From the NCBI GenBank assembly GCA_020435825.1, contig JAGQYY010000009.1, positions 1 through 52,254 on the forward strand: DNA of 52,254 nucleotides. The letters are read 5' to 3'. Under the pieces are notes generated by a model that worked only from the letters and a program-made list of their open reading frames with translations, made no database searches and was not told the DNA's origin. The DNA is from Aequorivita sp. (GTDB lineage: Bacteria > Bacteroidota > Bacteroidia > Flavobacteriales > Flavobacteriaceae). Below are positions 5,434 to 50,977 of this stretch, piece by piece. How positions within the stretch are numbered: the first letter of the stretch is position 1; each line of letters starts with the position of its first letter. The translations under genes and the position numbers were made by a program.

Positions 5434-6664
5434 ATTTTTCAGTCGCTGGTTGTTCGTGTGTCATACAATGAATACCTCCACCTCCGCGATTTATACTTAA
5501 AGTGTAAATCTGTATAATCTTTCTGTCAGGGAAAAGTTTTTCAAATAGTTCTTTCACATCTTGGTCTTTTTGTTTTTGGGATGCAGACATTCCTTCTTTC
5601 CAATATTTTGGTATTAATACCGTATTGTTGCTGATAAAATAATTCACATAACTTGCTGCTGGAACTCTATATATTGTGTCACCAGCTCTAAATCCAAAAT
5701 CTTTAAATTCACTTTCGGTGTCATTGTCGATTATATAAGTGTATTTAAGTTGCTCTATTTCGGGCATAGGAACTCTGTGTATTTCTAATTTTTTGCCTTC
5801 TGCATTGGTCGCTTTTTTCAAAATCTTAAAATTTTCTTCCAGCATATAATAATTGATGCTGTCGACAGGGCTTTTTGATATGTCCTTTTTATCAATAAAT
5901 GGCAGAATAACTGTGTGGTCATCAACAAATCTACATAGTTCGTCAATGTGCCTATTGGCACCACCACCAAAATAGTTTTTGTAAAATGGTCCAAAGTTTT
6001 TAAAGATTCTGTCTTCTATTAGACCGTCCTTAAGCCAAACAATTTTTTTTGCTCCTAAAACCCTTGTCAACTCATTTTCAATTTCTAACAATGATTTTGT
6101 TGGGTTTCGTTGTAGTGCCATTTCTTTTATAATGAGAAATGTTCCCTTACCATTCGACTCTATCCCTCCGGCTTCGAAAACAAAATCACTTTTTATCGTT
6201 GGGATATTTAATTGGGCAGCCAATCGTTTATCATACTCTCCGATACTTTTTATGTAATCGGGAATAGGTGTATCAATTATTTCAGGATATACACCATACA
6301 TTGAGTAATTAAAATCCACCATTTTTAATTGTTGATTTTCCAATACAAAAAATAGCGGGTCTCTTGTCCAAAAATCTACATTTGGATCTGTGGCAAAATG
6401 GATTTTTGAAGTATCAATTTTATAGTTGTTAAGTTTAGATTTTATGCTTGATGACAAAGAATCGTGAGGTATATTAAGGATAATCTCGATATCGGGCTGA
6501 AGAGCTTCCACAACCCGGCACAATACAGTATCTCGTCTGTCATTTCCAAACCAAGCAAGGTGAACCCTCTCTTGCTTTTCCCATTCTGCAGGAAGTCTTA
6601 ATGATTGTCCATTTGCTGACAATGCAGTTAATAATAAAGCAAATATGACATTAAATGGTTTCAT
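5432..6664 (-). CDS. Secreted agmatine deiminase / peptidyl-arginine deiminase family protein
   Basis: About 410 residues, starting at the ATG at 6664, because an export signal (MKPFNVIFALLLTALSANGQ) begins there. The PAD_porph family motifs are present: WTRDP, FEAGGIESNGKGT, and near the C-terminus GGGGIHCMTHEQP with the expected catalytic cysteine. Cytosolic relatives hydrolyse agmatine to N-carbamoylputrescine, and exported relatives such as the Porphyromonas enzyme act on arginine residues. The signal peptide here points to an extracytoplasmic substrate. It is separated from RidA by about 140 bases and from the protease block by a junction-like element. Confidence 0.84.
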   Translation of the reverse strand: MKPFNVIFALLLTALSANGQSLRLPAEWEKQERVHLAWFGNDRRDTVLCRVVEALQPDIEIILNIPHDSLSSSIKSKLNNYKIDTSKIHFATDPNVDFWTRDPLFFVLENQQLKMVDFNYSMYGVYPEIIDTPIPDYIKSIGEYDKRLAAQLNIPTIKSDFVFEAGGIESNGKGTFLIIKEMALQRNPTKSLLEIENELTRVLGAKKIVWLKDGLIEDRIFKNFGPFYKNYFGGGANRHIDELCRFVDDHTVILPFIDKKDISKSPVDSINYYMLEENFKILKKATNAEGKKLEIHRVPMPEIEQLKYTYIIDNDTESEFKDFGFRAGDTIYRVPAASYVNYFISNNTVLIPKYWKEGMSASQKQKDQDVKELFEKLFPDRKIIQIYTLSINRGGGGIHCMTHEQPATEK

Positions 6665-6683
6665 TTCGTGATTGCTTTTAAAT

Positions 6684-6710
6684 GGTTGCCAACTATTATG
6701 TATATGCACT
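6684..6710. repeat. Cassette-junction-like element at edge of accessory block
   Basis: GGTTGCCAAC followed by TATGTATATGCACT lies upstream of the deiminase gene. It again combines a GTTG(N)CAAC palindrome with a TGCAC motif, as at the higBA repeats. It may mark the right edge of the accessory block, since the genes beyond it are core functions. The match is weak and judged by eye. Confidence 0.25.
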
Positions 6711-6803
6711 TTTGGGATTATAAAAGGTGGGCTTTTTGTTGTTAAAAAAGCGTATAAATTTTTAAACAGAAAAAGCGGTTTTGTAACGAATTATGGCGAG
6801 CTC

Positions 6804-7184
6804 TTAAAACGAAGCAATTACCGAAATTTCCACATTTACAAACTTAGGCAGATTGGCAACCTCAACAGTTTCACGTGCTGGGGCAGTGGCTTCGTTAAAA
6901 TATGTGGCATAAACCTCATTGATGGCAGCAAAGTTGTGCATATCACTAATAAAGATGGAGGTTTTCAGTACATTTTCAAATGTCATTCCGGCTTTGGTAA
7001 GAATGGCCCTTAGGTTTTCCATAACCAGTTTGGTTTCAGTTTTAATATCATCTGTTACCAAATTGCCGGTTTTTGGGTCAATGGCTATCTGCCCAGAGGT
7101 GTATAGCATACTGCCGTTAAGAACCGCTTGGTTGTATGGGCCAATAGGGGCAGGGGCGTGGGGGGTGGTGATTATTTTTCTCAT
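6804..7184 (-). CDS. ridA: RidA family enamine/imine deaminase
   Basis: This 126-residue protein matches the usual RidA length. Hallmarks are the N-terminal HAPAPIGPYNQAVLNG, then YTSGQIAIDPKTG and PARETVEVANLP with the conserved arginine that contacts the carboxylate of the substrate. RidA hydrolyses reactive 2-aminoacrylate and other enamines formed by PLP enzymes, protecting the cytosol. It lies 41 bases downstream of the LptD-like gene on the same strand and may share its transcript. Starting at the ATG at 7184 gives the usual N-terminus. Confidence 0.94.
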   Translation of the reverse strand: MRKIITTPHAPAPIGPYNQAVLNGSMLYTSGQIAIDPKTGNLVTDDIKTETKLVMENLRAILTKAGMTFENVLKTSIFISDMHNFAAINEVYATYFNEATAPARETVEVANLPKFVNVEISVIASF

Positions 7185-7225
7185 TAAAGGGTAAATTTGT
7201 GAGTTTGTGAATCAGTAATTATTCA

Positions 7226-9937
7226 TTAGAGTCTCTTGTCGCTCTCCCTACGTTTGTCATATTTAATATCACTAAGTACGGAAGATTTTATGCCTATAAA
7301 AAAATACCAAGCCGTATTGATACTACCTATGGGCGTCCAATTAAAGCTCATTTGCCAGCTTTCCAAATCGCGCTGGAATCGGAACTGCGTTAAAGTTACA
7401 CCTTTGTTTTTAAAATCATAACCAGAGGAAACACCTACGGTCCAACGGGGTGCCAATTCCATATTTGTACTCATCATAAACGATTGGCTGGATATTTCAT
7501 TCTGCCGCTGTGCATTGCCGTAAGTGATGGTATAGGCAAAGCGGACATCCCACGGAATAGTGAAGTTGTACCATTCCACATTGGTTTTGTCAACATCCTC
7601 ATCATCTCTTTCTTTATAAATCTGCCCGTCATAAATATTGGAAGCTTCTCCAAAAAGATCATCGGGCCTGCCACCGTTTCTAAAAGTTTCATTGTCTATT
7701 TTATCGGTATCCTTGCCATCGCTTTCAAAATCTTTACTGCTGAATGAATAGTTTATGCTAACATTGGCATTGGTAAGCCTAAAAAGGCTTCCGCCATTGT
7801 TAATGTTGAAAACATCAATTTTATTATTATTGTTGTCCAGCGCATAAGGATCCAGTGCTCCACTGAAGTTGAAATCAAGCTTTTTCACAATGGGAATGCT
7901 TCCGGTGAATTGTAGGGGGCTCCAATTTAAAGAATCACCCGCAAGATTATATGCGGTTGAAAAATTTAGGTTGTTCAGCAACACAACCTTTTTCGGTTCC
8001 AAAGCAGTGGTATCACGGTCGCGTATTTTGGCTTCAAACGTATTGCTCAAAGACAGGCCTATACTACTGGAATATATTTTGCTTGGTGGGCCGTAAAGCG
8101 TGTTTTCAAAACGGGAATATTGCTCAACGTGTGCAGCCTCATTTGCCGTTTCAGGCACAAGGAATTCATCATAATACCTGTCAAATGCCGGATTTATGTT
8201 ATAGCTAACGGAAGGGCGCACCACGTGGCGAATGGCTTGAATTTTTTTATCTGTGCCAAAGTTGAAAAGTCCGTACAATGTAGTTCCCAAACTGGTTGAA
8301 AAATTATAAGTCCGGTAGCTTTCAAAACCTGAAACCGTGTCCTGAACAATACCTCCACCACCATCATTTGCAGTTTCATCATACCGTTTGCGCGTACTTT
8401 TCAAAACCCAAGTTTCCCGATAGTTAGTTCCGGCTGAAGCACTTAAATATTTAAGGATTTTAAAGTTTGTGGTAATTGGAATATTATGCTGCGCCCCAAT
8501 CTGTGCGCTGTTGAACATTTCCTGTTTAAAGAAAAGCGAATCAACTGTCTGGATTCGGTTTTCCGCAGTAACATCATACTGAAAGTTAATGTTTTGAATA
8601 ATCCCCTTTTTGGTACCATCCTTTGGTGCAAAAGGATAAATCCTTGAAACACTTGCATTCAAGTTTGGCAAAGACATTGATATTTGTTGTGTATTCGTGT
8701 TTTGCGAATGTGTAGCTGCCACAGTCAAGTTAACCTGTGGATCACCCTCAAAACTCTTTGAATAGGAAACGGAGGAGCTAAGCGTATTCACTAAAGCACT
8801 AGCGTTATTGGTCTGGTTGATGGATTGATTGAAATATTTACTACTTCCCAAATTCACCGAAGCCGAAAAACGCGAGTTTGGATTGCTCTTTGTATCTTGG
8901 CTGTGCGTCCACCGAATGTTGTAAATAGCGCTTTCCTGAAAATTAGGAAAACCCCGTTCTTCCTGAACAAGATATTCATACCGTGCACTAAAATTTCCAC
9001 GGTACTTATATTTTAATACATAAGCAGATTCGCCACGAAGGGCATAGCTTCCGTTTGTATAATAGTCGCCCAATAGACTAAAATCCAGGTAATCATTTAT
9101 GGCGAAGTAATACCCACCATTCTGAAAGAAAAACCCTCGACTGTTGTTTTCGCCAAAGGAAGGGATAATAAAACCAGAGGTGCGATCTTCTGTTAGTGGA
9201 AAATATGCAAAGGGAAGCCCCACAGGCGTTGGCACATCTGCAATGTACATATTTGTTAAACCTGTTACTATTTTTTTCTTTGGAACAAACTTCGCCTTCC
9301 GGGTGTAAAAGTAATATTCCGGATCGTCAATATTTTTTGAAGTAGTAAACTTCACATTCCGAAGATAAACTACGGAATCGTTTACTTTTTTGGTCACTTC
9401 AGAAATTACCCTAAAGCCGTTTTGTTCCGTTCTACTATTATAGACCAATGCTTTTTCTGTATCAAAATTATATCGGATGGAATCTGGCTCTACTCTATTG
9501 TTGGCCTGAACGAAAATGGGACGTTGGCTATAAACTCCAGCGCTGTCTATTCCTTTGGCATATACTTCGTTTTTGTTGTAATCTAGAATTATAAGGCCTG
9601 CATCTATGCGCATATCTTCATATATGATATACGCTTTGTTATACATATAGACTTTGTTCTCCTTTCTATTGAGCAGTACGTAGTCTTCCCCATAATAATC
9701 CACAATGTCTGTTAAAGTTTCCTTGGGTGGCTTTATGGAATCAGTCTTTACGGTATCTTGGGCTTGCTCGTTTATTTCATCAACAATTGGTTTTAGGTTT
9801 ACTGAAAGAGTGTCTTCTTTAGTGGTTTTGGGGATGTTAGCTTCATTCTTTGTTGGAATGTCCTGCGCATGCAAAACTGAACTGCAAAGAAGCAGGAATG
9901 TTAAGAAGATTGTTAAGTAATGCCTGTTGGTTCGCAA
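7226..9937 (-). CDS. lptD: LptD-like outer-membrane LPS assembly protein
   Basis: This is a large outer-membrane protein of about 900 residues. It has a signal peptide, an N-terminal OstA/LptA-like beta-jellyroll region (repeats such as DAGLIILDYNKNEVYAKGID) and a long C-terminal beta-barrel rich in alternating aromatic strands. Conserved LptD segments include PVGLPFAYFPLTEDRTSGF. LptD inserts lipopolysaccharide into the outer leaflet. The frame is open to a TTG at 9988, but that codon lies inside a perfect -7 element (9986-9993). The TTG at 9937 gives MRTNRHYLTIFLTFLLLC, a normal signal peptide, so I chose it. No ATG is available. It is divergent from the amidase gene. Confidence 0.86.
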   Translation of the reverse strand: MRTNRHYLTIFLTFLLLCSSVLHAQDIPTKNEANIPKTTKEDTLSVNLKPIVDEINEQAQDTVKTDSIKPPKETLTDIVDYYGEDYVLLNRKENKVYMYNKAYIIYEDMRIDAGLIILDYNKNEVYAKGIDSAGVYSQRPIFVQANNRVEPDSIRYNFDTEKALVYNSRTEQNGFRVISEVTKKVNDSVVYLRNVKFTTSKNIDDPEYYFYTRKAKFVPKKKIVTGLTNMYIADVPTPVGLPFAYFPLTEDRTSGFIIPSFGENNSRGFFFQNGGYYFAINDYLDFSLLGDYYTNGSYALRGESAYVLKYKYRGNFSARYEYLVQEERGFPNFQESAIYNIRWTHSQDTKSNPNSRFSASVNLGSSKYFNQSINQTNNASALVNTLSSSVSYSKSFEGDPQVNLTVAATHSQNTNTQQISMSLPNLNASVSRIYPFAPKDGTKKGIIQNINFQYDVTAENRIQTVDSLFFKQEMFNSAQIGAQHNIPITTNFKILKYLSASAGTNYRETWVLKSTRKRYDETANDGGGGIVQDTVSGFESYRTYNFSTSLGTTLYGLFNFGTDKKIQAIRHVVRPSVSYNINPAFDRYYDEFLVPETANEAAHVEQYSRFENTLYGPPSKIYSSSIGLSLSNTFEAKIRDRDTTALEPKKVVLLNNLNFSTAYNLAGDSLNWSPLQFTGSIPIVKKLDFNFSGALDPYALDNNNNKIDVFNINNGGSLFRLTNANVSINYSFSSKDFESDGKDTDKIDNETFRNGGRPDDLFGEASNIYDGQIYKERDDEDVDKTNVEWYNFTIPWDVRFAYTITYGNAQRQNEISSQSFMMSTNMELAPRWTVGVSSGYDFKNKGVTLTQFRFQRDLESWQMSFNWTPIGSINTAWYFFIGIKSSVLSDIKYDKRRESDKRL

Positions 9938-9985
9938 TGTGCTGATGCTATTATTTTGTAGTTTTGGCTCAGTATTTGAAACGCT

Positions 9986-9993
9986 CAAAAATA
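9986..9993 (-). promoter_or_regulatory. -7 promoter element of the lptD-like gene
   Basis: The minus strand reads TATTTTTG, a full match to TAnnTTTG. It lies about 49 bases upstream of the chosen TTG start at 9937 and overlaps the alternative TTG at 9988, which argues against the longer protein. Confidence 0.5.
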
Positions 9994-10067
9994 AACATAT
10001 TTTTTGGGGTACGTTTTTTTAAATGAAATTTTTAAAATATCAATTTTTATTAATCGTTAACAGGTAT

Positions 10068-11189
10068 ATGAAAACGAAAATTTTTTCTTCTTTCGTATTA
10101 ATAATAAGTATTTCATTGTTTTCTATTACTGCTTCAGCGGCTGAAAATCCTATAAAACCATTTGTTGTGGTTTTGGATGCAGGTCACGGTGGCCACGACC
10201 ACGGAAATAAAGGAAATGGATATAAAGAATCTGAAATTTCACTCAATATTGTTTTAAAAGTGGGAGCGGAGCTTGAAAAAATCCCTAATGTAAAAGTAAT
10301 CTATACCCGTAAAACAGATGTTTTTATTGAACTTCGCGAACGTGCTGCAATAGCCAACAGGGCAGATGCAGATCTTTTTGTTTCTGTGCACTGCAATGCC
10401 CACAGCAGCAATGCGTTTGGCACTGAAACCTTTGTGCTTGGGTTGCACAAAAGCCAAGCAAACTTTGAGGTTGCAAAAAAGGAGAACGAGGTTATCTATT
10501 TGGAAGATAACTATAAAGAAAAATATGGAGGTTTTGACCCTAACGCTCCAGAATCGTTAATAGGAATGGTATTGATGCAAGAAGAATATCTTGATCAAAG
10601 TATACTTTTAGCAAGTTTGGTACAAAACAATATTGTAAACAACCTAAAACAAAATGACCGCAGCGTTAAACAGGCCGGTTTCTGGGTTCTTCATAATACC
10701 TATATGCCCAGTGTTTTGATTGAAACAGGTTTTCTTACTAATAAAAAAGAAGGTGCATATTTGAATTCAGCAAAAGGGCAGACTGATATGGCACGTGAAA
10801 TAAGCGCTGCCATTAAAACCTATATAAGTAGTCTTTCCGTGGCAAATGATAATGTTAAAGACCCCGAAGTTAAGGAACTGGAAGTTGAAAAAGTAATTGA
10901 GACAACAAAAGCAGATTTATATGAAGGCGTAACTTTTAGGGTTCAATTAGCTGCCAGTAGAAAAAAACTGGACCCAACGCCCAGTAATTTTAAGAGGCTC
11001 AAAGATGTAGCTCGAGAAAAAGAAGATGGCCTTTATAAGTATTATTATGGAGAAACCTCTGATTATAACAAAATTCAGGTAATGAAAACCTTTGTACAAC
11101 AAAAAGGGTTTCCATCCGCATATATTGTTGCTTTTAAAAAAGGAAAAAAAGTTAATGTGCAAGAAGTGTTAAAATCGAAAGCCAATTAG
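10068..11189 (+). CDS. N-acetylmuramoyl-L-alanine amidase (AmiC type)
   Basis: The Amidase_3 domain (about residues 30-265) has zinc ligands in VLDAGHGGHD, KESE and SVHCNAH, and the catalytic glutamate in VLIETGFLTN. A C-terminal region of about 100 residues (TFRVQLAASRKKLDP, then YYYGETSDYNKIQV) resembles a SPOR-type peptidoglycan-binding domain. The enzyme cleaves the amide between muramic acid and the stem peptide, which helps separate daughter cells. The start at 10068 gives a signal peptide, MKTKIFSSFVLIISISLFSI; an in-frame ATG at 10023 would add 15 residues ahead of it. It is divergent from the lptD-like gene and followed by an MCE gene. Confidence 0.91.
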   Translation: MKTKIFSSFVLIISISLFSITASAAENPIKPFVVVLDAGHGGHDHGNKGNGYKESEISLNIVLKVGAELEKIPNVKVIYTRKTDVFIELRERAAIANRADADLFVSVHCNAHSSNAFGTETFVLGLHKSQANFEVAKKENEVIYLEDNYKEKYGGFDPNAPESLIGMVLMQEEYLDQSILLASLVQNNIVNNLKQNDRSVKQAGFWVLHNTYMPSVLIETGFLTNKKEGAYLNSAKGQTDMAREISAAIKTYISSLSVANDNVKDPEVKELEVEKVIETTKADLYEGVTFRVQLAASRKKLDPTPSNFKRLKDVAREKEDGLYKYYYGETSDYNKIQVMKTFVQQKGFPSAYIVAFKKGKKVNVQEVLKSKAN

Positions 11190-11213
11190 CGTGCTTTCTT
11201 TATATTTATCACT

Positions 11214-11221
11214 TAAATTTG
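11214..11221 (+). promoter_or_regulatory. -7 promoter element of the MCE gene
   Basis: TAAATTTG matches TAnnTTTG fully and lies 22 bases before the TTG start at 11244. No clear TTG -33 box is seen. Confidence 0.5.
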
Positions 11222-11243
11222 TTCAAAATCTAAAATTGCACTC

Positions 11244-12194
11244 TTGAGACTATCCAAAGAAGTTAAAACCGGAATTCTTGCCATTGGCGCCATATTATTA
11301 TTGATATTTGGCTATAGTTTTTTAAAAGGTACCAACCTGTTAGACAAAAACCGTGAATTCTATGTAAAATATGACAACGTGGAAGGATTGGCCCAAGCTG
11401 CGCCCGTTACTATCAATGGACTTACCGTGGGTAAAGTTCAGGATATAACCTTTGCCAATTCAAAAGGTGGTTTGGTTGTTAAATTTACGGTTGAAAAGGA
11501 CTTCGACTTTTCAAGAAACAGTATAGTTAGAATTTATAGCTCTGGTCTTCTTGGTGGGAAAAACTTGGGGATTTTCCCGGAGTATGATGCAAAAAACATT
11601 GCCAAAAGCGGTGACACCCTTCGTGGCGATGTGGAAGACGGTATGTTGACCGCCGTTTCAAAAGCACTTGCTCCTTTGGAAAAAAAGGTAAATAATACCC
11701 TTGCTACCATAGACACGCTTTTATTGAGCATGAATGCAATTGTGGATAAAGAGACTCAAAAAAATTTGAAAGAGGCCATTGAAAACCTAAACAATACATT
11801 AAATTCCTTTTCAGGGGTTTCTGAAAACCTAAATCAAATTCTTTCAAACAATACCGGAAAACTGGACAATACCTTTACCAATCTTGATAAAACCGCAAGC
11901 AACCTTTCCCAGTTAACAGATTCATTGGCACAATTGGAAACCGGAAAATTGGTTGCCGATCTTCAGAATGTGGTTGACAAAATGGATAAAATTGTAGCGG
12001 GAGTAGATAATGGAGAAGGTTCTATTGGCAAATTGTTAAAAGACGACAAACTCTACCAAAATTTAGAAGGTGCTTCCAGACAGCTTGAACAACTTTTACA
12101 AGACGTAAAACTGAACCCAAAACGATACGTTCACATTTCTGTATTTGGTAAAAAACAGAAAGAATACGTAACACCGGACAACCCAGACGAATAA
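11244..12194 (+). CDS. MlaD-like MCE family lipid transport protein
   Basis: This 316-residue protein has one N-terminal membrane helix (ILAIGAILLLIFGYSFLKG), an MCE domain (about 35-115, with YVKYDNVEGLAQAAPVTING) and a long C-terminal helical segment rich in asparagine, leucine and threonine. MlaD-type proteins form periplasmic hexamers moving phospholipids between membranes. The start is TTG: the family's usual opening RLSKEVKTGILAIG begins right after it and no upstream ATG is in frame. No MlaE or MlaF permease genes are adjacent. The next gene follows after 3 bases. Confidence 0.9.
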   Translation: MRLSKEVKTGILAIGAILLLIFGYSFLKGTNLLDKNREFYVKYDNVEGLAQAAPVTINGLTVGKVQDITFANSKGGLVVKFTVEKDFDFSRNSIVRIYSSGLLGGKNLGIFPEYDAKNIAKSGDTLRGDVEDGMLTAVSKALAPLEKKVNNTLATIDTLLLSMNAIVDKETQKNLKEAIENLNNTLNSFSGVSENLNQILSNNTGKLDNTFTNLDKTASNLSQLTDSLAQLETGKLVADLQNVVDKMDKIVAGVDNGEGSIGKLLKDDKLYQNLEGASRQLEQLLQDVKLNPKRYVHISVFGKKQKEYVTPDNPDE

Positions 12195-12197
12195 ACC

Positions 12198-13529
12198 ATG
12201 CAGTACCTTCCTAACATACTCTTCAGCATCGCCCTAGTGGCGGGAATAGGTTATTTTACAATGAACATCCGTAAAATAATTCGCAACATCAAGTTGGGAC
12301 AGGAGGTTGATGCTTCTGACAATACGGGACAACGGTGGAGCAATGTAGTCCGTATAGCTCTGGGCCAATCAAAAATGGTAGTTAGGCCCATTCCTGGATT
12401 GCTGCACCTGTTTGTTTATATTGGGTTTGTCATCATCAATATTGAAGTTCTTGAAATTATCATAGATGGTATTTTTGGTACACACCGCATTTTTTCCACA
12501 GTACTTCCCGCAGGATTGTACAACTTTTTAATTGCCTCTTTTGAAATACTGGCACTTTTGGTTTTGGTTGGCGTTATTCTTTTTTGGACACGAAGAAATG
12601 TTCAAAAACTACAACGCTTTTGGAAACCGGAAATGAAAGGCTGGCCAAAGAATGACGGTAATTTTATTCTCTATTTTGAAATGATATTGATGATTCTGTT
12701 TCTAACCATGAACGCTGCCGATCAATCCCTACAGGCATTAGGGTCAGCTCATTATGTTGAGGCTGGAGCATTTCCTGTGAGTAAGTTTATTGTTCCGTTT
12801 ATGGACGGTTTGTCCGAAGCAACCTATATCGCTATTGAACGAAGTGCTTGGTGGCTTCATATTTTAGGAATTCTTGTATTCCTGAATTACCTATACTTTT
12901 CAAAACATCTTCACATAATACTGGCCTTTCCAAATGTTTACTTCGGAAAAGTGGCTCCAAAAGGAAAGTTTAAAAATCTAGATTCCGTTACTAATGAAGT
13001 AAAAATGATGATGGATCCAAATGCAGATCCGTTTGCAGCACCCGCTGAAGGAGCAACCGAAACTCCTGCTAAATTTGGTGCCAGTGATGTAATGGATTTA
13101 AGCAGGATACAATTACTGAATGCATATACCTGCACCGAATGTGGCCGCTGTACCAGCGAATGTCCTGCAAATATCACCGGGAAAAAACTTTCGCCCCGTA
13201 AAATAATGATGGATACTCGTGATCGTTTGGAAGAGATTGGAAAGAATATTGACAAAAATGGCGAATTCAAACCAGACGGAAAACAATTGTTGGACGATTA
13301 TATTACAAGGGAAGAACTTTGGGCCTGCACCACTTGTAACGCCTGTGTAGAGGCTTGTCCCGTAAGTATTGACCCATTGAGCATTATTATGGATATGCGC
13401 CAATACTTGGTGATGGAACAATCGGCAGCTCCAACAGAGTTGAATGTTGCGATGACAAATATTGAAAACAACGGCGCACCTTGGCCATACAACCAAATGG
13501 ATCGATTGAATTGGAAGAATGAAAATTGA
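12198..13529 (+). CDS. Membrane-bound (Fe-S) oxidoreductase subunit, HdrE/HdrC-like
   Basis: This 443-residue protein has an N-terminal membrane part of about five helices (residues 1-250), resembling the nitrate-reductase-gamma/HdrE haem-binding type. It is followed by a ferredoxin-like domain with two [4Fe-4S] motifs: Cys312, 315, 318, 322 (CTECGRCTSECP) and Cys377, 380, 383, 387 (CTTCNACVEACP). It would pass electrons between the quinone pool and a cytosolic partner. The partner is probably the cysteine-rich CCG protein at 14047, with a small HAD-like gene between them. The physiological substrate is unknown. Confidence 0.86.
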   Translation: MQYLPNILFSIALVAGIGYFTMNIRKIIRNIKLGQEVDASDNTGQRWSNVVRIALGQSKMVVRPIPGLLHLFVYIGFVIINIEVLEIIIDGIFGTHRIFSTVLPAGLYNFLIASFEILALLVLVGVILFWTRRNVQKLQRFWKPEMKGWPKNDGNFILYFEMILMILFLTMNAADQSLQALGSAHYVEAGAFPVSKFIVPFMDGLSEATYIAIERSAWWLHILGILVFLNYLYFSKHLHIILAFPNVYFGKVAPKGKFKNLDSVTNEVKMMMDPNADPFAAPAEGATETPAKFGASDVMDLSRIQLLNAYTCTECGRCTSECPANITGKKLSPRKIMMDTRDRLEEIGKNIDKNGEFKPDGKQLLDDYITREELWACTTCNACVEACPVSIDPLSIIMDMRQYLVMEQSAAPTELNVAMTNIENNGAPWPYNQMDRLNWKNEN

Positions 13530-13557
13530 TTGTATTTTGAATTGAAAAGAAATAATA

Positions 13558-13992
13558 ATGAAGAAAGAGGAAGTAGAAAAAATGCTGCACGATAAAGTGG
13601 AAATGGGGGAACATGTAAGCCCAATTCTTCCCGAAGGGATAAAAAATTACTTGATAGACATTGACGGAACAATTACCGATGACATTCCAAATGAGGAACC
13701 CGAACGAATGGCAACCTGTAAGCCATTTCCAGATGCTTTAAAAACCTTGAACAAGTGGTATGATGAAGGGAACGTCATCTGTTTTTTTACCTCCCGAACC
13801 GAAGCCCATCGCGAAGTAACCGAAACTTGGCTTAAAAAGCACGGTTTTAAATACCACAGTATGTTGATGGGAAAACCTCGCGGTGGTAACTATCATTGGG
13901 TGGATAACCATTTAGTGAGAGCTACGCGATATAAAGGTAGATTTACAGATTTGGTAGAGAAAGAAGTGACCATTGAAGTGTTTGAAGATTAA
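13558..13992 (+). CDS. HAD-like phosphatase family protein
   Basis: This 144-residue protein has the HAD motif I, LIDIDGTITDD, near residues 31-41. Motif II-like FFTSRTEAHREV follows, then a KHGFKYHSMLMGKPRGGNYHWVDNH segment seen in small HAD phosphatases. It lacks a large cap domain. It is encoded 28 bases after the Fe-S membrane subunit and 54 bases before the CCG subunit, so it is likely cotranscribed. The substrate cannot be told from sequence. Confidence 0.75.
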   Translation: MKKEEVEKMLHDKVEMGEHVSPILPEGIKNYLIDIDGTITDDIPNEEPERMATCKPFPDALKTLNKWYDEGNVICFFTSRTEAHREVTETWLKKHGFKYHSMLMGKPRGGNYHWVDNHLVRATRYKGRFTDLVEKEVTIEVFED

Positions 13993-14001
13993 TATTAATT
14001 A

Positions 14002-14028
14002 TCACCCTGAGCGCAGTCGAAGGGTTGA
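14002..14028. repeat. REP-like imperfect palindrome
   Basis: CACCCTGAGCGCAGTCGAAG continuing into GGTTGA can fold with ACCCT pairing to AGGGT. It sits in the 54-base gap between the HAD-like and CCG genes. I recognise this as a type of extragenic palindrome common in many bacterial genomes, from memory only. Confidence 0.5.
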
Positions 14029-14046
14029 AAATAGAAACTTTAAGAA

Positions 14047-14838
14047 ATGACTGAACAAATAAAAGTCCCAACAATGGCCGAATATATGGCCCAAGGCAAG
14101 CAACCGGAAGTACTGTTTTGGGTTGGCTGCGCTGGGAGTTTTGACGACCGTGCAAAAAAAATAACCAAAGCCTTTGTAAAATTGCTCAACAAAGCAAATA
14201 TAGATTTTGCCGTTTTGGGAACCGAGGAAAGCTGTACTGGTGATCCCGCAAAAAGAGCTGGAAATGAGTTTCTGTTCCAAATGCAGGCAATGACCAATAT
14301 TGAAGTGCTGAACGGTTATGAAATAAAGAAGATAGTTACCGCTTGCCCGCATTGTTTTAACACCATCAAAAATGAATATCCCGGTCTTGGCGGTAATTAT
14401 GAAATTATGCACCACACCCAATTCCTAAAATCCTTACTGGAAGAAGGCAGGTTGAAAGTTGAGGGCGGAAAATTTAAAGGAAAAAAAATCACATTCCACG
14501 ATCCGTGTTATTTGGGAAGGGCAAATGGCGAATATGAAGCTCCTAGAAACCTTCTTGAAAAACTGGAAGTGGAACTGGTAGAGATGAAGCGTAACAAAAA
14601 ACATGGCATGTGCTGTGGTGCTGGTGGAGCACAGATGTTTAAAGAACCCGAAGCTGGAGACACAGACGTAAACGTTGCTCGAACCGAACAAGCGTTGGAA
14701 ACTTCATCAAAGATAATTGCAACGGGTTGCCCGTTTTGTATGGTAATGATGACCGATGGCGTAAAAGCCAAAAACGCTGAAGAAAATGTGCAAGTAATGG
14801 ACGTTGCAGAAATGATTGCAAATGCAGAAGATTTATAA
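14047..14838 (+). CDS. (Fe-S)-binding protein with two CCG domains, HdrB/HdrD-like
   Basis: This 263-residue soluble protein has two cysteine-rich CCG-type domains. Visible pieces are FWVGCAGSFDDR near residue 22, EESCTGDPAKR, then FHDPCYLGRANGEYEAPR and MCCGAGGAQMF. In heterodisulfide reductase and in GlpC/LutA-type enzymes these cysteines hold an unusual Fe-S centre for disulfide or 2-hydroxyacid chemistry. It is probably the catalytic partner of the membrane Fe-S subunit encoded at 12198. The bacillithiol gene bshA lies about 3.5 kb downstream, but a functional link is only speculation. Confidence 0.85.
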   Translation: MTEQIKVPTMAEYMAQGKQPEVLFWVGCAGSFDDRAKKITKAFVKLLNKANIDFAVLGTEESCTGDPAKRAGNEFLFQMQAMTNIEVLNGYEIKKIVTACPHCFNTIKNEYPGLGGNYEIMHHTQFLKSLLEEGRLKVEGGKFKGKKITFHDPCYLGRANGEYEAPRNLLEKLEVELVEMKRNKKHGMCCGAGGAQMFKEPEAGDTDVNVARTEQALETSSKIIATGCPFCMVMMTDGVKAKNAEENVQVMDVAEMIANAEDL

Positions 14839-45277: not shown

Positions 45278-45312
45278 AATCCCGCACCTCTTTTTGGTCG
45301 GGATTTTTTTTT
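45278..45312 (+). terminator. Intrinsic terminator after the OmpA-family gene
   Basis: AATCCCG pairs with CGGGATT (7 base pairs, 14-base loop) followed by a run of nine T residues. It isolates the polyketide operon, which begins 28 bases further on. Confidence 0.85.
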
Positions 45313-45339: not shown

Positions 45340-46455
45340 GTGAAAAAAGATATTATAGTTATTGGTGGAGGTTTGGCAGGGCTTACTGCGGCATTAAATC
45401 TCGCTAAAAATGATTTTAAGGTTTGTTTGATTGAAAAAAATGAATATCCAAACCATAAAGTTTGTGGCGAGTATGTTAGTAACGAAATATTACCCTTTTT
45501 AAATTCTTTGGAAGTTGACCCATTTTCAGCAGGGGCCAAAAAAATATCAAAATTTGAGATTACAGATATAAAAGGAACTCCTTTAAAAGTAAATTTGCCG
45601 CTCGGAGGATTTGGAATTAGCCGCTATGCCTTTGATAATTTATTGTTTGAATCATTAAAAAGTAAAGCTGAAATTATTTTTGACACTGTTGAAAAAGTAA
45701 CTTTTGAAAAAGAATGTTTTTCAGTGACAACCCAAGGAAAGGAAATTTTGAATGCAGATTTCGTCATAGGTGCTTTCGGAAAGAGATCAAATTTGGATTC
45801 ATTTTTAAACCGAAAATTTATGCAGCAAACTTCGCCTTGGCTTGCTGTGAAAGCACATTATGAATACGATTTCCCCAAAGACACCGTTGCTTTACATAAT
45901 TTTAATGGTGGGTATTGCGGTTTGAGCAAAACCGAAACCAATGTCGTAAACGCCTGTTATTTGGCCACTTTTAAATCCTTTAAAAAATATGGCGATATTG
46001 ATATTTTTCAAAAAAAAGAACTTTCTAAAAATCCCTTTTTGGATAGGTTTTTTAAGGAAGCAAAACCAATCTTCAAAAAACCATTAACTATCAGCCAAGT
46101 ATCGTTTCAGAAAAAAAACCCTGTGGAAAACCATATCTTTATGATTGGTGATAGCGCAGGACTCATCCATCCGCTCTGCGGCAATGGAATGGCAATGGCT
46201 ATAAAAAGCGCTCAAATTTTTTCGGAATTGTTTCTTAATGTTTTTAAAAATAACAATTTTGATAGAATGAAGCTGGAAGAACAATATACAACCCAATGGA
46301 AAAACGAATTTGAAGGAAGATTAAAAACCGGAAGATTTATTCAACGCGTTTTGATGGATCCATTTGCTTCAAAAGTAGGGTTTTCAATGGCCCGGATTGT
46401 TCCTTCAATAGTGCCGAAAATTATTAAAAAGACCCATGGGACCAAAGCTGTATGA
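45340..46455 (+). CDS. FAD-dependent oxidoreductase of the polyketide operon
   Basis: This 371-residue flavoprotein is of the geranylgeranyl reductase/aromatic hydroxylase superfamily. It has the dinucleotide fold IIVIGGGLAGLTAALNLA at the N-terminus, the NHKVCGEYVS segment and the second FAD motif MIGDSAGLIHPLCGNGMAM near 265. The start is GTG. As first gene of an operon with a methyltransferase and a type III synthase it resembles SrsC-type hydroxylases that oxidise alkylresorcinols to quinones. Reduction of a double bond is the alternative. It overlaps the next gene by 4 bases. Confidence 0.84.
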   Translation: MKKDIIVIGGGLAGLTAALNLAKNDFKVCLIEKNEYPNHKVCGEYVSNEILPFLNSLEVDPFSAGAKKISKFEITDIKGTPLKVNLPLGGFGISRYAFDNLLFESLKSKAEIIFDTVEKVTFEKECFSVTTQGKEILNADFVIGAFGKRSNLDSFLNRKFMQQTSPWLAVKAHYEYDFPKDTVALHNFNGGYCGLSKTETNVVNACYLATFKSFKKYGDIDIFQKKELSKNPFLDRFFKEAKPIFKKPLTISQVSFQKKNPVENHIFMIGDSAGLIHPLCGNGMAMAIKSAQIFSELFLNVFKNNNFDRMKLEEQYTTQWKNEFEGRLKTGRFIQRVLMDPFASKVGFSMARIVPSIVPKIIKKTHGTKAV

Positions 46456-47171
46456 TTACTTTCAGCAATAAATACAGATCGCATCAAGCGGAAATCATGG
46501 ACAATTTGGATTTTCAGGGAGAAGAAATGAAAAATCTTTTAAGCGATTTGAAATATGTAAACAAATGGCTGGGCGGCAACAAGGTTACACTTGATGGAAT
46601 TGAAAAACTTTTGCTAGGCAATTCAAAAAAGGAATCAATCACAATTTTGGATATTGGTTGTGGCGATGGCGAAATGCTTCGAAATTGTGTAAAATATGCA
46701 GAAAATAATAATCTAAAATTGAAATGCATCGGTGTGGATTTCAATAAAAATATTTTGGAGTATGCTGAAAACCAAAGCAGGGATTTTCCAAATATAAAAT
46801 TTCAAAAAGTTGATGTTTTTTTGGATGAAGAATTAATACCGAATTGCGATATTGCAATATGTACGCTGTTTTTGCACCATTTCAACGACGAAAGGATTTC
46901 GGAATTATTGTACACTCTTTTGAAAAAATCAAATAACGGGTTGGTAATTAATGATTTGCAAAGAAGCAGAATGGCCTTCAACTTATTTAAAATTTTGAGT
47001 AAGTTATTTTTAAAAACCAAAACGGCAAAATATGACGGTCTGGTTTCCATTGCGAGAGGCTTTAAAAAAAGTGAGCTTGAGCATATTTCAAAAAAAATCC
47101 CAAATCAAAAAAGTGAAATCCATTGGCGGTGGGCATTCCGCTATCAATGGATAATCAAAAAAAAGATATGA
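46452..47171 (+). CDS. Class I SAM-dependent methyltransferase of the polyketide operon
   Basis: This 239-residue protein has the SAM-binding motif ILDIGCGDGEML near 65-76, an acidic loop GVDFNKNILEYAE and a post-motif CTLFLHHFNDE. The C-terminal part (FKKSELEHI, then IHWRWAFRYQWIIKK) is basic and aromatic and may contact the lipid substrate or the membrane. By analogy with SrsB and BpsB, which methylate phenolic lipids or alkylpyrones, it likely O- or C-methylates the cyclised polyketide. It overlaps both neighbours by 4 bases. Confidence 0.86.
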   Translation: MITFSNKYRSHQAEIMDNLDFQGEEMKNLLSDLKYVNKWLGGNKVTLDGIEKLLLGNSKKESITILDIGCGDGEMLRNCVKYAENNNLKLKCIGVDFNKNILEYAENQSRDFPNIKFQKVDVFLDEELIPNCDIAICTLFLHHFNDERISELLYTLLKKSNNGLVINDLQRSRMAFNLFKILSKLFLKTKTAKYDGLVSIARGFKKSELEHISKKIPNQKSEIHWRWAFRYQWIIKKKI

Positions 47172-48220
47172 AAGCAAAAATAACCACAGTAGCAAAACAG
47201 TTACCGGCCCACAGTAGAAACACTGCGGAAGTAATTCCGTTCGTAAAACAATGGATGAGTGGGCAGGACAGCCGTTTTCAGCGGAAAGTGATAAAAATAT
47301 TTGAAGGCGCGGGCGTGGATAAACGCTATTCCATTATGGATCCAGTAGAAGTTTTCACGAACACGAGCTTTGAGGAACGCAACGATATTTATGTTCGCGA
47401 AATAACAAAATTAGGGAAGCAATGTCTTGAAAAAGCTTTGAAAAAAGCTAATTGGAAACCAACGGATATTGATTTTATCATTACGGTTAGCTGTACCGGA
47501 ATTATGATTCCATCAGTTGATGCTTATTTGATTAATGAACTGGAAATGAAACAGGACATCGTGCGCCTTCCCGTTACCGAAATGGGCTGTGCAGCAGGAA
47601 TTTCGGGAATTATTTATGCCAATAACTTTTTAAAAGCAAATCCTGGAAAACGAGCAGCCGTAATTGCCTTGGAAGCACCCACGGCTACTTTCCAATTGGA
47701 AGATTTTTCTATGGTGAATATTGTGAGTGCAGCTATTTTTGGCGATGGGGCAGCCTGTGTTTTGCTTTCCTCTAATGAAAAGGATACAGGCCCAGAAATT
47801 CTTGCTGAAGAAATGTACCATTTTTACGATGCAACAGATATGATGGGTTTTAAGCTTGTGAACACGGGACTTCAAATGATTCTCGATAAAAGTGTTCCTG
47901 ATAAAATAGCTGAACATTTTCCAGCTATTGTAAATCCTTTCCTAAGAAAAAACAATCTTGAAATTAAGGATATTGACCATCTGATTTTTCATCCCGGGGG
48001 AAGAAAAATACTAGAAACAGTGGAGGGACTATTCGGCAGTTTGGGTAAAAATATTGAAGAAACAAAAGAAGTGCTTAAATTGTACGGCAATATGAGTAGC
48101 GCCACCGTACTTTATGTTTTAGAACGCTTTATGGACCAAAAACCCAAAAGTGGTGATTTGGGATTAATGCTGAGTTTTGGCCCCGGTTTTTCAGCACAAC
48201 GTATTTTATTGAAATTTTAG
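47168..48220 (+). CDS. Type III polyketide synthase
   Basis: This 350-residue homodimeric ketosynthase of the chalcone-synthase family has an intact triad: Cys141 in VTEMGCAAGISG, His275 in LIFHPGGRK and Asn308 in YGNMSSATVLYVLER. The GCAAG form and the FGDGAACVLL and SFGPGFSAQ segments place it with bacterial alkylresorcinol/alkylpyrone synthases that accept long acyl starters and extend with malonyl-CoA. The ATG at 47168 overlaps the methyltransferase stop as ATGA. An upstream in-frame ATG at 47123 adds 15 residues not expected in the family. The enoyl reductase gene starts 2 bases later. Confidence 0.94.
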   Translation: MKAKITTVAKQLPAHSRNTAEVIPFVKQWMSGQDSRFQRKVIKIFEGAGVDKRYSIMDPVEVFTNTSFEERNDIYVREITKLGKQCLEKALKKANWKPTDIDFIITVSCTGIMIPSVDAYLINELEMKQDIVRLPVTEMGCAAGISGIIYANNFLKANPGKRAAVIALEAPTATFQLEDFSMVNIVSAAIFGDGAACVLLSSNEKDTGPEILAEEMYHFYDATDMMGFKLVNTGLQMILDKSVPDKIAEHFPAIVNPFLRKNNLEIKDIDHLIFHPGGRKILETVEGLFGSLGKNIEETKEVLKLYGNMSSATVLYVLERFMDQKPKSGDLGLMLSFGPGFSAQRILLKF

Positions 48221-48222
48221 CT

Positions 48223-48996
48223 ATGAGTGAATTCAATAATCAATGGGCATTAATTCTCGGGGGCAGTAGCGGATTGGGGCTTGCCAGTGCTATAAAACTC
48301 GCCTCTGAGGGAATGAATATTTGCATTGTCCACCGAGATGGAAAGAATAAATTGGCTGCATTTCGGGAAGAAGTAAATAAGATGAAATCTTTCGGTGTGT
48401 CAGTTAAAACCTTTAATCTTGATGCTTTGCGTAGAGATGTTAGAGATGAAATAATGAAGGAGCTGCCCAAGCATAGCGTAAAAATACTTTTGCACAGTAT
48501 TGCAAAAGGAAGTTTGAAAAAAATGCACGGTGCCGAAAATAAAATCCTTTCAAAGCAGGATTTTGATATCACTATTCACGCAATGGCCATTAGCTGGTAT
48601 GAGTGGACACAGGCTTTGGTTCTAAATAAAACCTTTGCTGATAAAGCCAGGAATATAGCTTTTACCAGTGAAGGAAATACTAAAGTTTGGCCTGGTTATG
48701 CAGCTGTTTCTGCAGCAAAATCAGTATTGGAGGCTTTGATGCGAAATATGGCGGTTGAATTGACTCCATTAGGAATTACTTCTAACTGTATTCAAGCCGG
48801 CACCACAGAAACACCTTCATTTTTGGCAATACCGGGAAGTGAAAAATTGGCTGAAATGGCCAAACTGCGAAATCCTTTCAACAGACTCACTACTCCTGAA
48901 GACGTGGCAGCCACTGTATATCTGCTTTGTAAAAAAGAAGCTGATTGGATAAATGGAACCGTTTTAAAAGTGGATGGCGGAGAGAGTTTAAGATAA
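48223..48996 (+). CDS. SDR enoyl-ACP reductase-like protein (FabI/FabL type)
   Basis: This 257-residue short-chain dehydrogenase has the cofactor loop LGGSSGLGLASA (12-23), HSIAKGS near 91-97 and a Tyr159-x6-Lys166 pair in YAAVSAAK. The six-residue spacing and the HSIA motif mark enoyl reductases rather than ketoreductases such as FabG, which have Tyr-x3-Lys. An additional Tyr126 sits where FabI has its second tyrosine. In this operon it would saturate the enoyl chain on the operon's carrier protein. Its start is 2 bases after the type III synthase and the next gene is 6 bases on. Confidence 0.8.
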   Translation: MSEFNNQWALILGGSSGLGLASAIKLASEGMNICIVHRDGKNKLAAFREEVNKMKSFGVSVKTFNLDALRRDVRDEIMKELPKHSVKILLHSIAKGSLKKMHGAENKILSKQDFDITIHAMAISWYEWTQALVLNKTFADKARNIAFTSEGNTKVWPGYAAVSAAKSVLEALMRNMAVELTPLGITSNCIQAGTTETPSFLAIPGSEKLAEMAKLRNPFNRLTTPEDVAATVYLLCKKEADWINGTVLKVDGGESLR

Positions 48997-49002
48997 TATA
49001 AT

Positions 49003-49452
49003 TTGAAGAAAAACGAAATCATATCGCTGCTTCCTTATTCTGAACCTTTTTTGTTTGTGGATGAAATACTTTCTATTTCTGAAGAAACTATTTCCGGAAA
49101 CCATACTTTCAACAAAAATGCTTTTTTTTATAAAGGCCATTTTAAAAATAAACCAGTTACTCCCGGTGTAATTTTGACGGAGTGCATGGCTCAGATTGGC
49201 TTGGTCTGTCTTGGTATTTATCTTTTGGGTAAAGAGAATAGTACAACAAACCAAACATTTGCATTAAACAGTTCCGAAATTGACTTTTACCTTCCTGTTT
49301 TTCCAGATGAAAAAGTAACTGTTGTTTCTGAAAAAGTCTATTTCAGGTTTCAGAAATTAAAGTGTAAAGTGAAGATGCTGAACGCAAATGGTGAAATTGT
49401 AGCAAAAGGAATACTTAGCGGCATGATTTTGAAACAGGATAATCTAAAATGA
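49003..49452 (+). CDS. FabZ-like 3-hydroxyacyl-ACP dehydratase
   Basis: This 149-residue hot-dog fold protein has active-site His46 in YKGHFKNKPVTPGV and Glu60 in ILTECMAQIG, the same arrangement as FabZ. A lysine replaces the usual proline after GHF. The start is TTG, giving the family opening KKNEIISLLPYSEPFLFVD. It would dehydrate 3-hydroxyacyl chains on the operon's carrier protein. It overlaps the ketosynthase gene by 4 bases. Confidence 0.87.
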   Translation: MKKNEIISLLPYSEPFLFVDEILSISEETISGNHTFNKNAFFYKGHFKNKPVTPGVILTECMAQIGLVCLGIYLLGKENSTTNQTFALNSSEIDFYLPVFPDEKVTVVSEKVYFRFQKLKCKVKMLNANGEIVAKGILSGMILKQDNLK

Positions 49453-50720
49453 AAAAACGCGTAGTAATTACTGGAATTGGAGTGGTTTCACCAAATGGTG
49501 TAGGCATTCCTAAGTTTACTGAGTCCATTAAAAATGGTATTTCTGGAATCCGGTTTTTTCCAGAACTGCGGGAGCTTAATTTTTCATGCCAGTTGGGGGG
49601 AATGCCAACAATTACCGAAGAAAAAAAGCGCGAATATCTTTCAGAACTCCAACTCCGTAATTTCAACAGCAGCGGTATTTTATATGGAATAATCGCTGGA
49701 ATGGATGCTTTTAAAGATGCCAATATGGAACCTGCAAAAACAACCGAAGAACCACTTTGGGACTTGGGTATAATCTTTGGAAGTGGCACAAGCGGTGTTG
49801 AAAAATTTAGGGAATCTATTTATAAAATTGATGACAAAAACACCCGCCGTTTAGGTAGTAATTCCGTGGCACAAACCATGACCAGTGGCGTGAGTGCCTA
49901 TCTGGGCGGTTTAATTGGTGCAGGAAATATGGTTACGGCTAATTCTTCCGCATGTGCAACTGGCACAGAAGCACTGTTAATGGGCTATGAACACATTGCA
50001 AATGGAAAGGCAACTTATATGCTGTGTGGCAGCACTAGTGATTCTGGCCCCTATATTTGGGGAGGTTTTGACGCTATGAAGGTTACAACATATAAATATA
50101 ATGATGCTCCCGAAAACGTTCCAGGCCCCATGAGTGCGGAAGCTAGTGGCTTTGTCCCCAGCAGTGGGGCAGGAGCATATTTGTTGGAATCTCTGGAAAG
50201 TGCCCAAAAGCGTGGAGCAACAATTTATGCAGAAATCTTGGGCGGTGCCATAAACAATGGGGGGCAAAGAGGAGGAGGTAGTATGACCGCTCCCAATAGT
50301 CTAGCGGTTCAAAATTGTATAAAGGACGCTATAATAAATTCAAATATTTCCGCTGCGGAAATAGATTACATAAATGGACATTTAACAGCTACCATTAAAG
50401 ATCCTGATGAGATTGAAAACTGGAGCGTAGCCCTCAATAGAAAAGGGGGGGAGTTTCCTTATATCAATTCCTTAAAGGGAATGGTTGGCCACTGTTTGGC
50501 AGCCAGTGGAAGTATTGAAATTGTTTCGGCCCTACTGCAACTTCAAGAAGGGTTTATTTTTCCAAATGTGAATTGTGAAAATTTGCACCCAAAAATAACC
50601 GAATTGATTCCTTCTGAAAAAATTTCGATGAAACTTCAAAAAACATCGTTACAAACCATTGCAAAAGCCAGTTTTGGTTTTGGCGACGTAAATGCTTGTG
50701 TTATCTTTAAAAAAATTTAA
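49449..50720 (+). CDS. FabF-like beta-ketoacyl-ACP synthase
   Basis: This 423-residue thiolase-fold condensing enzyme has Cys169 in TANSSACATGTEAL, His311 in INGHLTATIKDPDE, Lys343 in NSLKGMVGH and His348. The triad is intact, but the usual A-H-G-T context of the first histidine is G-H-L-T and the region between is diverged from housekeeping FabF, suggesting a specialised chain length or primer. It would elongate acyl chains with malonyl-ACP. It overlaps the dehydratase gene and lies 5 bases before the carrier protein gene. Confidence 0.9.
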   Translation: MKKRVVITGIGVVSPNGVGIPKFTESIKNGISGIRFFPELRELNFSCQLGGMPTITEEKKREYLSELQLRNFNSSGILYGIIAGMDAFKDANMEPAKTTEEPLWDLGIIFGSGTSGVEKFRESIYKIDDKNTRRLGSNSVAQTMTSGVSAYLGGLIGAGNMVTANSSACATGTEALLMGYEHIANGKATYMLCGSTSDSGPYIWGGFDAMKVTTYKYNDAPENVPGPMSAEASGFVPSSGAGAYLLESLESAQKRGATIYAEILGGAINNGGQRGGGSMTAPNSLAVQNCIKDAIINSNISAAEIDYINGHLTATIKDPDEIENWSVALNRKGGEFPYINSLKGMVGHCLAASGSIEIVSALLQLQEGFIFPNVNCENLHPKITELIPSEKISMKLQKTSLQTIAKASFGFGDVNACVIFKKI

Positions 50721-50725
50721 AAGGG

Positions 50726-50977
50726 ATGACTTCAGAAGAAATATATGTACAAATCCAACCCATCATTAAAGCATATTTACCAGAAGATGTTTCAGCGGAA
50801 GATATTAATCCTGATAGTGATTTAACGCGAGAGCTCAACATTAATTCTGCCCATCTCGTCGATATAATTTTGGACATTGAAGATGCTTTTAATATTGAAT
50901 TTAAAAATGACGATATGGAAAAATTGCGAAATGTGAATGACGCCATATTGTTGATCCAACAAAAGATTTCCGCTTAA
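50726..50977 (+). CDS. Acyl carrier protein of the polyketide operon
   Basis: This 83-residue protein has the helical carrier fold with the phosphopantetheine-accepting Ser41 in LNINSAHLVDIILDIEDAF. The usual D-S-L motif is N-S-A here. The acidic helix II after the serine (VDIILDIEDAF) is typical of carriers that meet FabF-type enzymes. It is the seventh and last gene of the tightly packed operon. No phosphopantetheinyl transferase or thioesterase is encoded nearby, so housekeeping PPTase would be needed. Confidence 0.9.
   Translation: MTSEEIYVQIQPIIKAYLPEDVSAEDINPDSDLTRELNINSAHLVDIILDIEDAFNIEFKNDDMEKLRNVNDAILLIQQKISA

Follow-up and report, generated by a model that had tools for sequence, protein, structure and literature searches.

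Type III polyketide synthases (T3PKSs) fed with chains carried by an acyl carrier protein (ACP) have been described before. As far as the excerpts available from the papers cited here extend, ArsB/ArsC and germicidin synthase accept acyl-ACP (PMC6274091), HidC is proposed to use acyl-ACP, and CylB is a free-standing ACP ahead of the T3PKS CylI (PMC8086630); planctomycete T3PKSs, when expressed in a heterologous host, yield pentadecyl- and heptadecylresorcinols, and one of the planctomycete methyltransferases probably methylates carbon (PMC10896814). T3PKS clusters amount to 10.74% (PMC10734526) or 9% (PMC7440613) of the biosynthetic clusters of Flavobacteriaceae, and have been recorded in Aequorivita (PMC6139392, PMC10608841) as well as other Bacteroidota (PMC9859067, PMC12843772, PMC10752948). 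Surveys with antiSMASH presumably already count among them the operon analysed here.

This operon lies in a stretch of 52,254 nucleotides from Aequorivita sp. (contig JAGQYY010000009.1 of assembly GCA_020435825.1; hereafter the window), one contig of a 2.65-Mb genome that is 87% complete. It encodes, in order, a flavoprotein, a methyltransferase, a T3PKS, a short-chain dehydrogenase/reductase (SDR), a FabZ-like dehydratase, a ketosynthase (KS) and an ACP. The operon quite probably makes a phenolic-type lipid, an ACP-borne chain passing to the T3PKS and the ring being closed, then hydroxylated and methylated; this reading is supported by the conserved gene order, by the joint occurrence of T3PKS and KS, and by a phosphopantetheinyl transferase gene near the ACP in many copies. 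A private assembly line of this kind is plausible, and conservation of the locus supports it. The initial annotation had interpreted the operon as a T3PKS joined to its own chain builder resembling a fatty acid synthase (FAS), an interpretation that is partly supported.

Conservation of the operon and its active sites

Among 80 named loci, the best 80 of 244 candidates and therefore biased toward close relatives, the order flavoprotein-methyltransferase-T3PKS-(SDR)-FabZ-KS-ACP recurs in 74, which rules out a chance grouping of genes and answers the search for the same order in other genomes that the initial annotation had proposed. Among named T3PKSs, the one from Aequorivita soesokkakensis comes closest (95%). 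Of the six remaining loci, two start inside the operon (L034, L035), three end inside it (L020, L049, L075), and one (L074) has no detectable ACP. In L074, from Polaribacter, an IS200-like transposase gene lies between the T3PKS and FabZ genes (10082-12523) and no ACP was found downstream; this copy may be decaying.

The complete loci differ in two accessory genes: 49 of the 74 lack the SDR and have a phosphopantetheinyl transferase gene after the ACP, 23 have the SDR and lack the transferase, one (L079) has both and one (L018) has neither, the enoyl reductase being absent from 50 in all. Across the 80 loci the transferase gene is found downstream of the ACP in 50, at most 55 bases away in 48 of these (its identity was tested with PF01648 at L019, 12184-12672, and assigned by similarity elsewhere). 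It follows the ACP in most Flavobacterium copies, and none was found after the ACP in the Aequorivita loci of this set. A transferase beside the ACP fits a carrier that must be charged. Outside the family the complete operon was found at three loci, with the SDR in L231 and without it in L232 and L233, each having a gene of the transferase's size and start after the ACP. The operon is widespread in Flavobacteriaceae and occurs beyond the family as well.

Of 199 evenly drawn genomes of the family, representing 198 genera, 64 encode a T3PKS (E <= 1e-30); one of these T3PKSs has just 33% identity and presumably belongs to a different type (G072), and another has its gene in two pieces (G150). Of the 30 family genomes that were in both the T3PKS and the KS survey, 22, including that of the window, encode the T3PKS as well as the operon KS (E <= 1e-70), and 8 encode neither; these genomes are related to each other and so do not represent 30 independent events, and those lacking the KS were taken in order of kinship, which reached beyond the family.

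The active sites, which the initial annotation had judged intact, are conserved across the window and those named loci where the gene concerned was detected: Cys141-His275-Asn308 of the T3PKS (numbered from 47168) in 81/81 rows, His46 and Glu60 of FabZ in 81/81, Tyr159-x6-Lys166 of the SDR in 28/28, Ser41 of the ACP in 78/78, and Cys169, His311 and His348 of the KS in 79/80, the exception (L020) being truncated by a contig end. The usual ACP motif is Asp-Ser-Leu; here Asn precedes the attachment serine in 77/78 rows (residues 39-44, window 50840-50857). The assignments are borne out by Pfam and NCBIfam, although all NCBIfam matches shown for the seven proteins fall under the curated cut-offs, which makes the proteins outliers within their families. 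The methyltransferase matches PRK06202 best (126.7 bits, cut-off 243 bits). The SDR scores 129.3 bits against NCBIfam FabL, not reaching the curated score of 328, and at E <= 1e-20 it has a single relative of solved structure, the NADPH enoyl-ACP reductase 3oic, which we take to be FabL of Bacillus subtilis; with the Tyr-x6-Lys motif, this supports assignment as a FabL-type enoyl-ACP reductase, narrowing the FabI/FabL-like prediction made earlier. The nearest solved relatives of the KS are two unspecified beta-ketoacyl synthases, followed by beta-ketoacyl-ACP synthase II and I enzymes.

As first described, the seven genes form one tight run (Table 1) with gaps of 2-6 bases or 4-base overlaps, bounded by a terminator and a 125-base gap before the next gene, at 51103; this spacing by itself suggests that all seven are co-transcribed. 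The flavoprotein gene begins 27 bases past the T run of the terminator, whose hairpin has a folding energy of -15.2 kcal/mol, where shuffled sequences average -6.97 (z -3.8), and was absent from a simple terminator scan, probably because of its bulged stem. The T3PKS start was placed at 47168 as homologues align from residue 2 of the 47165 frame; the TTG at 47123 chosen by the open reading frame (ORF) tool is not needed.

Table 1. Features of the operon region, with positions in the window
Feature	Position	Strand	Remarks
Intrinsic terminator	45278..45312	+	Hairpin 45278-45305 and T run; ends the OmpA-like lipoprotein gene upstream and sets the operon apart
Flavoprotein, flavin adenine dinucleotide-dependent oxidoreductase (geranylgeranyl-reductase/UbiH superfamily)	45340..46455	+	GTG start; Pfam/NCBIfam, structural model
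Class I S-adenosylmethionine methyltransferase	46452..47171	+	4-base overlap with flavoprotein gene; NCBIfam PRK06202, UbiE/UbiG models
T3PKS, 350 aa	47168..48220	+	ATG start by homology; 4-base overlap with methyltransferase gene; chalcone-synthase fold, catalytic triad
FabL-type SDR (enoyl-ACP reductase)	48223..48996	+	Gap of 2 after T3PKS gene; NCBIfam, Tyr-x6-Lys
FabZ-like 3-hydroxyacyl-ACP dehydratase	49003..49452	+	TTG start, gap of 6; Pfam/NCBIfam, active-site residues
FabF/FabB-like KS	49449..50720	+	4-base overlap with FabZ gene; Cys-His-His
ACP	50726..50977	+	Gap of 5 after KS gene; Asn-Ser-Ala motif

Chain-building enzymes and ancestry of the T3PKS

The operon holds the KS, dehydratase, enoyl reductase and ACP of a type II fatty acid synthase. 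The same genome has four ACP and five KS matches, the operon's included: contig C124 carries one ACP adjoining one KS, and contig C55 two ACPs and three KS matches. The operon KS is at most 33% identical to the other ketosynthases of the genome, and the operon ACP is distinct from the three further ACPs, in keeping with the private carrier protein proposed at the outset. FabZ/FabA domains are encoded on C136 and C55, and further SDRs elsewhere. Given these additional ketosynthases, ACPs, SDRs and FabZ/FabA domains, the operon set was rejected as the sole fatty acid synthase of the cell. Nor is it part of the C55 locus, which is likely a flexirubin-like locus judged by its ACP and KS content alone: the contigs are separate and the KS identity is low. 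Aryl polyene builders consist of ketosynthase, ketoreductase and dehydratase without an enoyl reductase; a polyene builder is not preferred here, as the SDR has the enoyl-reductase motif and a ketoreductase is absent from the operon. Where the SDR is missing, double bonds could remain in the chain.

Elsewhere in the phylum the T3PKS keeps other company. Of 392 Bacteroidota genomes, 193 have a T3PKS match, and in 20 of 39 sampled Bacteroidota neighbourhoods it occurs together with a flavoprotein and a methyltransferase (a trio); a similar KS is nearby in only one of the 39 (L167) and a similar ACP in none. The L167 cluster (5796-13529), which encodes a FabZ-like protein, a short KS, an ACP, a KS, two SDRs, a T3PKS, an ABC transporter and a second T3PKS-like protein, is a different instance in which discrete type II enzymes accompany a T3PKS. 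At five loci (L143, L172, L173, L176, L179) the T3PKS gene adjoins one for an isoprenylcysteine carboxyl methyltransferase (ICMT). In the operon, as in the trios, the flavoprotein, methyltransferase and T3PKS genes are adjacent on one strand.

The gene trees differ. The operon T3PKSs (support 100/100) join the ICMT clade and three proteobacterial rows, split from the trio side with support of 100/100; this tree, the second for the T3PKS, had 44 rows, without the long rows L167, L195, L197 and L198, with others thinned, and with L231, L232 and L235 added. The operon flavoproteins stand beside those of the trios from certain families, with the trio flavoproteins of other families outside the group (support 98). 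In the methyltransferase tree, which does not decide the matter, operon and trio groups are neighbours with neither nested in the other, and L074 is not placed. The operon looks chimeric, since its flavoprotein groups with the trios and its T3PKS does not; on these trees the simplest reading of its origin would be that the T3PKS was exchanged and the KS set added.

The T3PKS model (predicted local distance difference test score, pLDDT, 94) has PKS11, an alkylpyrone enzyme by its description, and CylI, whose structure was determined with acyl substrate and resorcinol product, as nearest folds, with PKS18 and tetrahydroxynaphthalene (THN) synthase within the first 15. Its residues Cys109, Thr174, Phe228 and Met237 (signature C-T-F-M) are the same in 115/115 T3PKS rows of the operon type (the window, L002-L081, L083-L111 and L231-L235; 112 distinct sequences among 114 loci) and in 0/46 other rows; most T3PKSs ranking under the best 30 of the family survey, such as G191 (58%), G072 and G150, fall outside the 115. 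Cys109 and Met237 recur in 26/26 flavoprotein- or methyltransferase-linked T3PKSs of other bacteria, a count that includes five one-partner loci (L154, L162, L163, L168, L178) and L196, whose flavoprotein is taken from annotation, with very weak flavoprotein matches for L169 and L170 (31 and 40 bits). The trio-type signature is C-H-W-M at chalcone synthase (CHS) positions 132, 197, 256 and 265, of which the operon shares Cys and Met, with Thr and Phe for His and Trp. The ICMT clade lacks Cys and Met in 7/7 rows, having Thr/Ser, Thr/Ala, Trp and Val/Ile at the same sites (neighbours were scanned for five of these; L144 and L180 were assigned by tree position).

Proposed pathway and competing explanations

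The ACP would carry an acyl chain built or extended by the operon KS and FabZ and, where the FabL-like enzyme is present, reduced by it, while a housekeeping ketoreductase and malonyl transferase would complete the cycle. The T3PKS would then take the chain into its acyl tunnel, add malonyl units and close the ring, most likely to a 5-alkylresorcinol by aldol condensation; the flavoprotein may hydroxylate the ring, and the methyltransferase may then methylate it. We infer direct loading from the operon ACP, as well as the ring type, the order of tailoring and the chain length. The pathway draws support from the T3PKS fold near PKS11 and CylI, the shared Cys109 and Met237, the aromatic Phe228, the alkylresorcinols obtained from trio-like planctomycete operons, and a flavoprotein fold whose matches include aromatic monooxygenases. 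In ArsB/ArsC, resorcinol formation is favoured by an aromatic residue at the corresponding site, according to the part of the source available (PMC6274091). That site, ArsB Trp281/ArsC Gly284, corresponds to CHS position 256 in our own mapping from the Met293 spacing and alignments. The flavoprotein model (pLDDT 90) is closest in fold to flavin monooxygenases, halogenases and tetracycline destructases (template modelling scores of about 0.6-0.8), which is consistent with action on an aromatic ring but does not tell hydroxylation apart from other reactions; the protein is a probable ring hydroxylase.

Several observations weigh against this pathway. The idea of a chain builder of the operon's own holds for the KS, FabZ, FabL-like reductase and ACP, but no ketoreductase, malonyl transferase (FabD) or FabH was found within the operon (ORF list, Pfam, NCBIfam) and the reductase is missing from most complete loci; for lack of the first three, the operon must draw on enzymes from the rest of the cell. 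A scan upstream of the operon for TANNTTTG, the promoter motif of Bacteroidota, identified no promoter: the motif has no match on the + strand between terminator and operon start, and its frequency in the window is no higher than chance, so no promoter is claimed. Halogenases and tetracycline destructases are among the closest folds of the flavoprotein, and its best sequence family, under the cut-off, is geranylgeranyl reductase. Cys and Met are not peculiar to partner-linked T3PKSs, as they also occur in 8 of 13 other T3PKS rows, in 7 of these without either partner detected. A joint grouping of the operon and trio T3PKSs is rejected by the approximately unbiased test (p 0.006), the trio group having been named after the first tree (68 rows) and the program having warned of long branches meeting. 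The ICMT-linked T3PKSs nearest to those of the operon are presumably bpsAB-like (BpsB of the alkylpyrone system), from their ICMT partner. Finally, PKS11, an alkylpyrone synthase, likewise carries an aromatic residue (Trp) at this position in the mapping, so that Phe228 is no proof of a resorcinol.

The last of these points bear on an alkylpyrone (lactone) as the product, tailored by the flavoprotein and methyltransferase. Grouping with the ICMT-linked clade and the nearest solved structure, PKS11, speak for it; Cys109 and Met237 match the flavoprotein- or methyltransferase-linked enzymes, not the ICMT clade, and the operon flavoprotein groups with those of the trios, which leaves a pyrone unlikely. 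Another explanation is that the KS, FabZ and ACP make a separate acyl group, for instance one attached later or an unsaturated or branched one for a membrane lipid, and are merely co-regulated with a T3PKS that uses coenzyme A or housekeeping acyl-ACP starters. FabZ-KS-ACP modules do exist without an adjoining T3PKS in three genomes of another Bacteroidota family (L227, L228, L229), an SDR-FabZ-KS set adjoins the flexirubin genes darB, darG and darH in L230, and such a KS is lacking from 38 of the 39 T3PKS neighbourhoods sampled elsewhere in the phylum. The exceptionless co-occurrence in the 30 family genomes and the fixed gene order make this explanation improbable, and the KSs of the free-standing modules are just 47-51% identical. 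A T3PKS with a short or malonyl starter (DpgA- or naphthol-like), the type II set acting on its product, is very doubtful. In its favour, the best NCBIfam match of the operon T3PKS is DpgA (173.9 bits, far under the 425-bit cut-off), and THN synthase, among the near sequences, has Cys and a bulky aromatic residue at two of the same sites, but the closest structures are PKS11 and CylI, no further gene of the dpg kind is named in the operon, and the signature is unlike that of the Streptomyces plasmid rows L195 and L197.

The free-standing modules have neighbours of their own: in L227 (8600-13746), L228 (7325-10568) and L229 (8727-11856) they lie beside GNAT-like genes, with glycosyltransferase genes (Pfam) beside the module in L227 and L228 and an SDR within it in L227. 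The L230 set (7779-14538) includes a borderline phosphopantetheinyl transferase (24.9 bits, cut-off 25).

A further-reaching and more tentative proposal has chances somewhat less than even: the T3PKS would stand at the end of a discrete type II line of its own, a private ACP (in many species charged by a private phosphopantetheinyl transferase) handing directly to it the chain made by the private KS and dehydratase; the line would have arisen by T3PKS exchange in a phylum-wide flavoprotein-methyltransferase unit, to which the set was added; and the product would be a widespread, so far unseen hydroxylated and methylated phenolic or quinone lipid. About one tenth of the biosynthetic clusters of Flavobacteriaceae are of the T3PKS type. 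The comparison of loci shows the present one to be a single conserved operon rather than a loose annotation class, and defines its member genes. If the private ACP feeds the T3PKS, the operon offers a small free-protein system for studying and engineering how long the chain grows and how the ring forms. A phenolic or quinone lipid, if that is the product, would be a component of the membrane or of redox metabolism that has been overlooked in many flavobacteria.

Comparison with described systems

No product of such an operon, and no account of its KS-FabZ-ACP set, was found in searches of the open-access literature, a scope outside which supplements and most subscription journals fall; the initial annotation likewise knew of no characterised product. 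The hidABC (hierridin) and planctomycete operons likewise combine methyltransferase, oxidoreductase and T3PKS, leading to a methylated alkylresorcinol, but the available excerpts name no private KS, dehydratase or ACP there, and the gene order differs (PMC10896814, PMC8086630). Simple orthology with hidABC is not supported, as the operon T3PKS lies outside the Bacteroidota trio clade, HidC itself not being among the tree rows. In the bpsAB system of B. subtilis, to whose type the ICMT-linked T3PKSs, the nearest clade to the operon's, are likened, the methyltransferase is of the ICMT type, which was not found in the operon by Pfam or NCBIfam; a class I methyltransferase is present instead. Flexirubin and dialkylresorcinol clusters of flavobacteria likewise devote type II ketosynthases and ACPs to a resorcinol lipid, but their ring comes from a DarB-type ketosynthase, not from a type III PKS (NCBIfam DarB, DarG, DarH).

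The CylB/CylI clusters likewise combine a free-standing ACP with a T3PKS at the end, but a halogenase takes part, to judge from the excerpts of PMC8086630. The arsABCD operon of Azotobacter vinelandii, in the parts of the sources available, also places T3PKSs beside a dedicated fatty acid synthase, whose ACP domain passes the chain to the T3PKS (PMC6274091, PMC3098273). That synthase is a large type I fatty acid/polyketide synthase, whereas the operon here has discrete type II proteins and no type I FAS ORF was found between 43000 and 52254 of the window. The contrast with known systems that was drawn initially thus stands for the discrete type II set and not for ACP use: since acyl-ACP loading has been reported before and is proposed for HidC, and the CylI pathway has a free-standing ACP, the new point is the discrete set. 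The parts of the operon are of known kinds, and their arrangement, for which no product was found, is a variant of the T3PKS phenolic-lipid systems.

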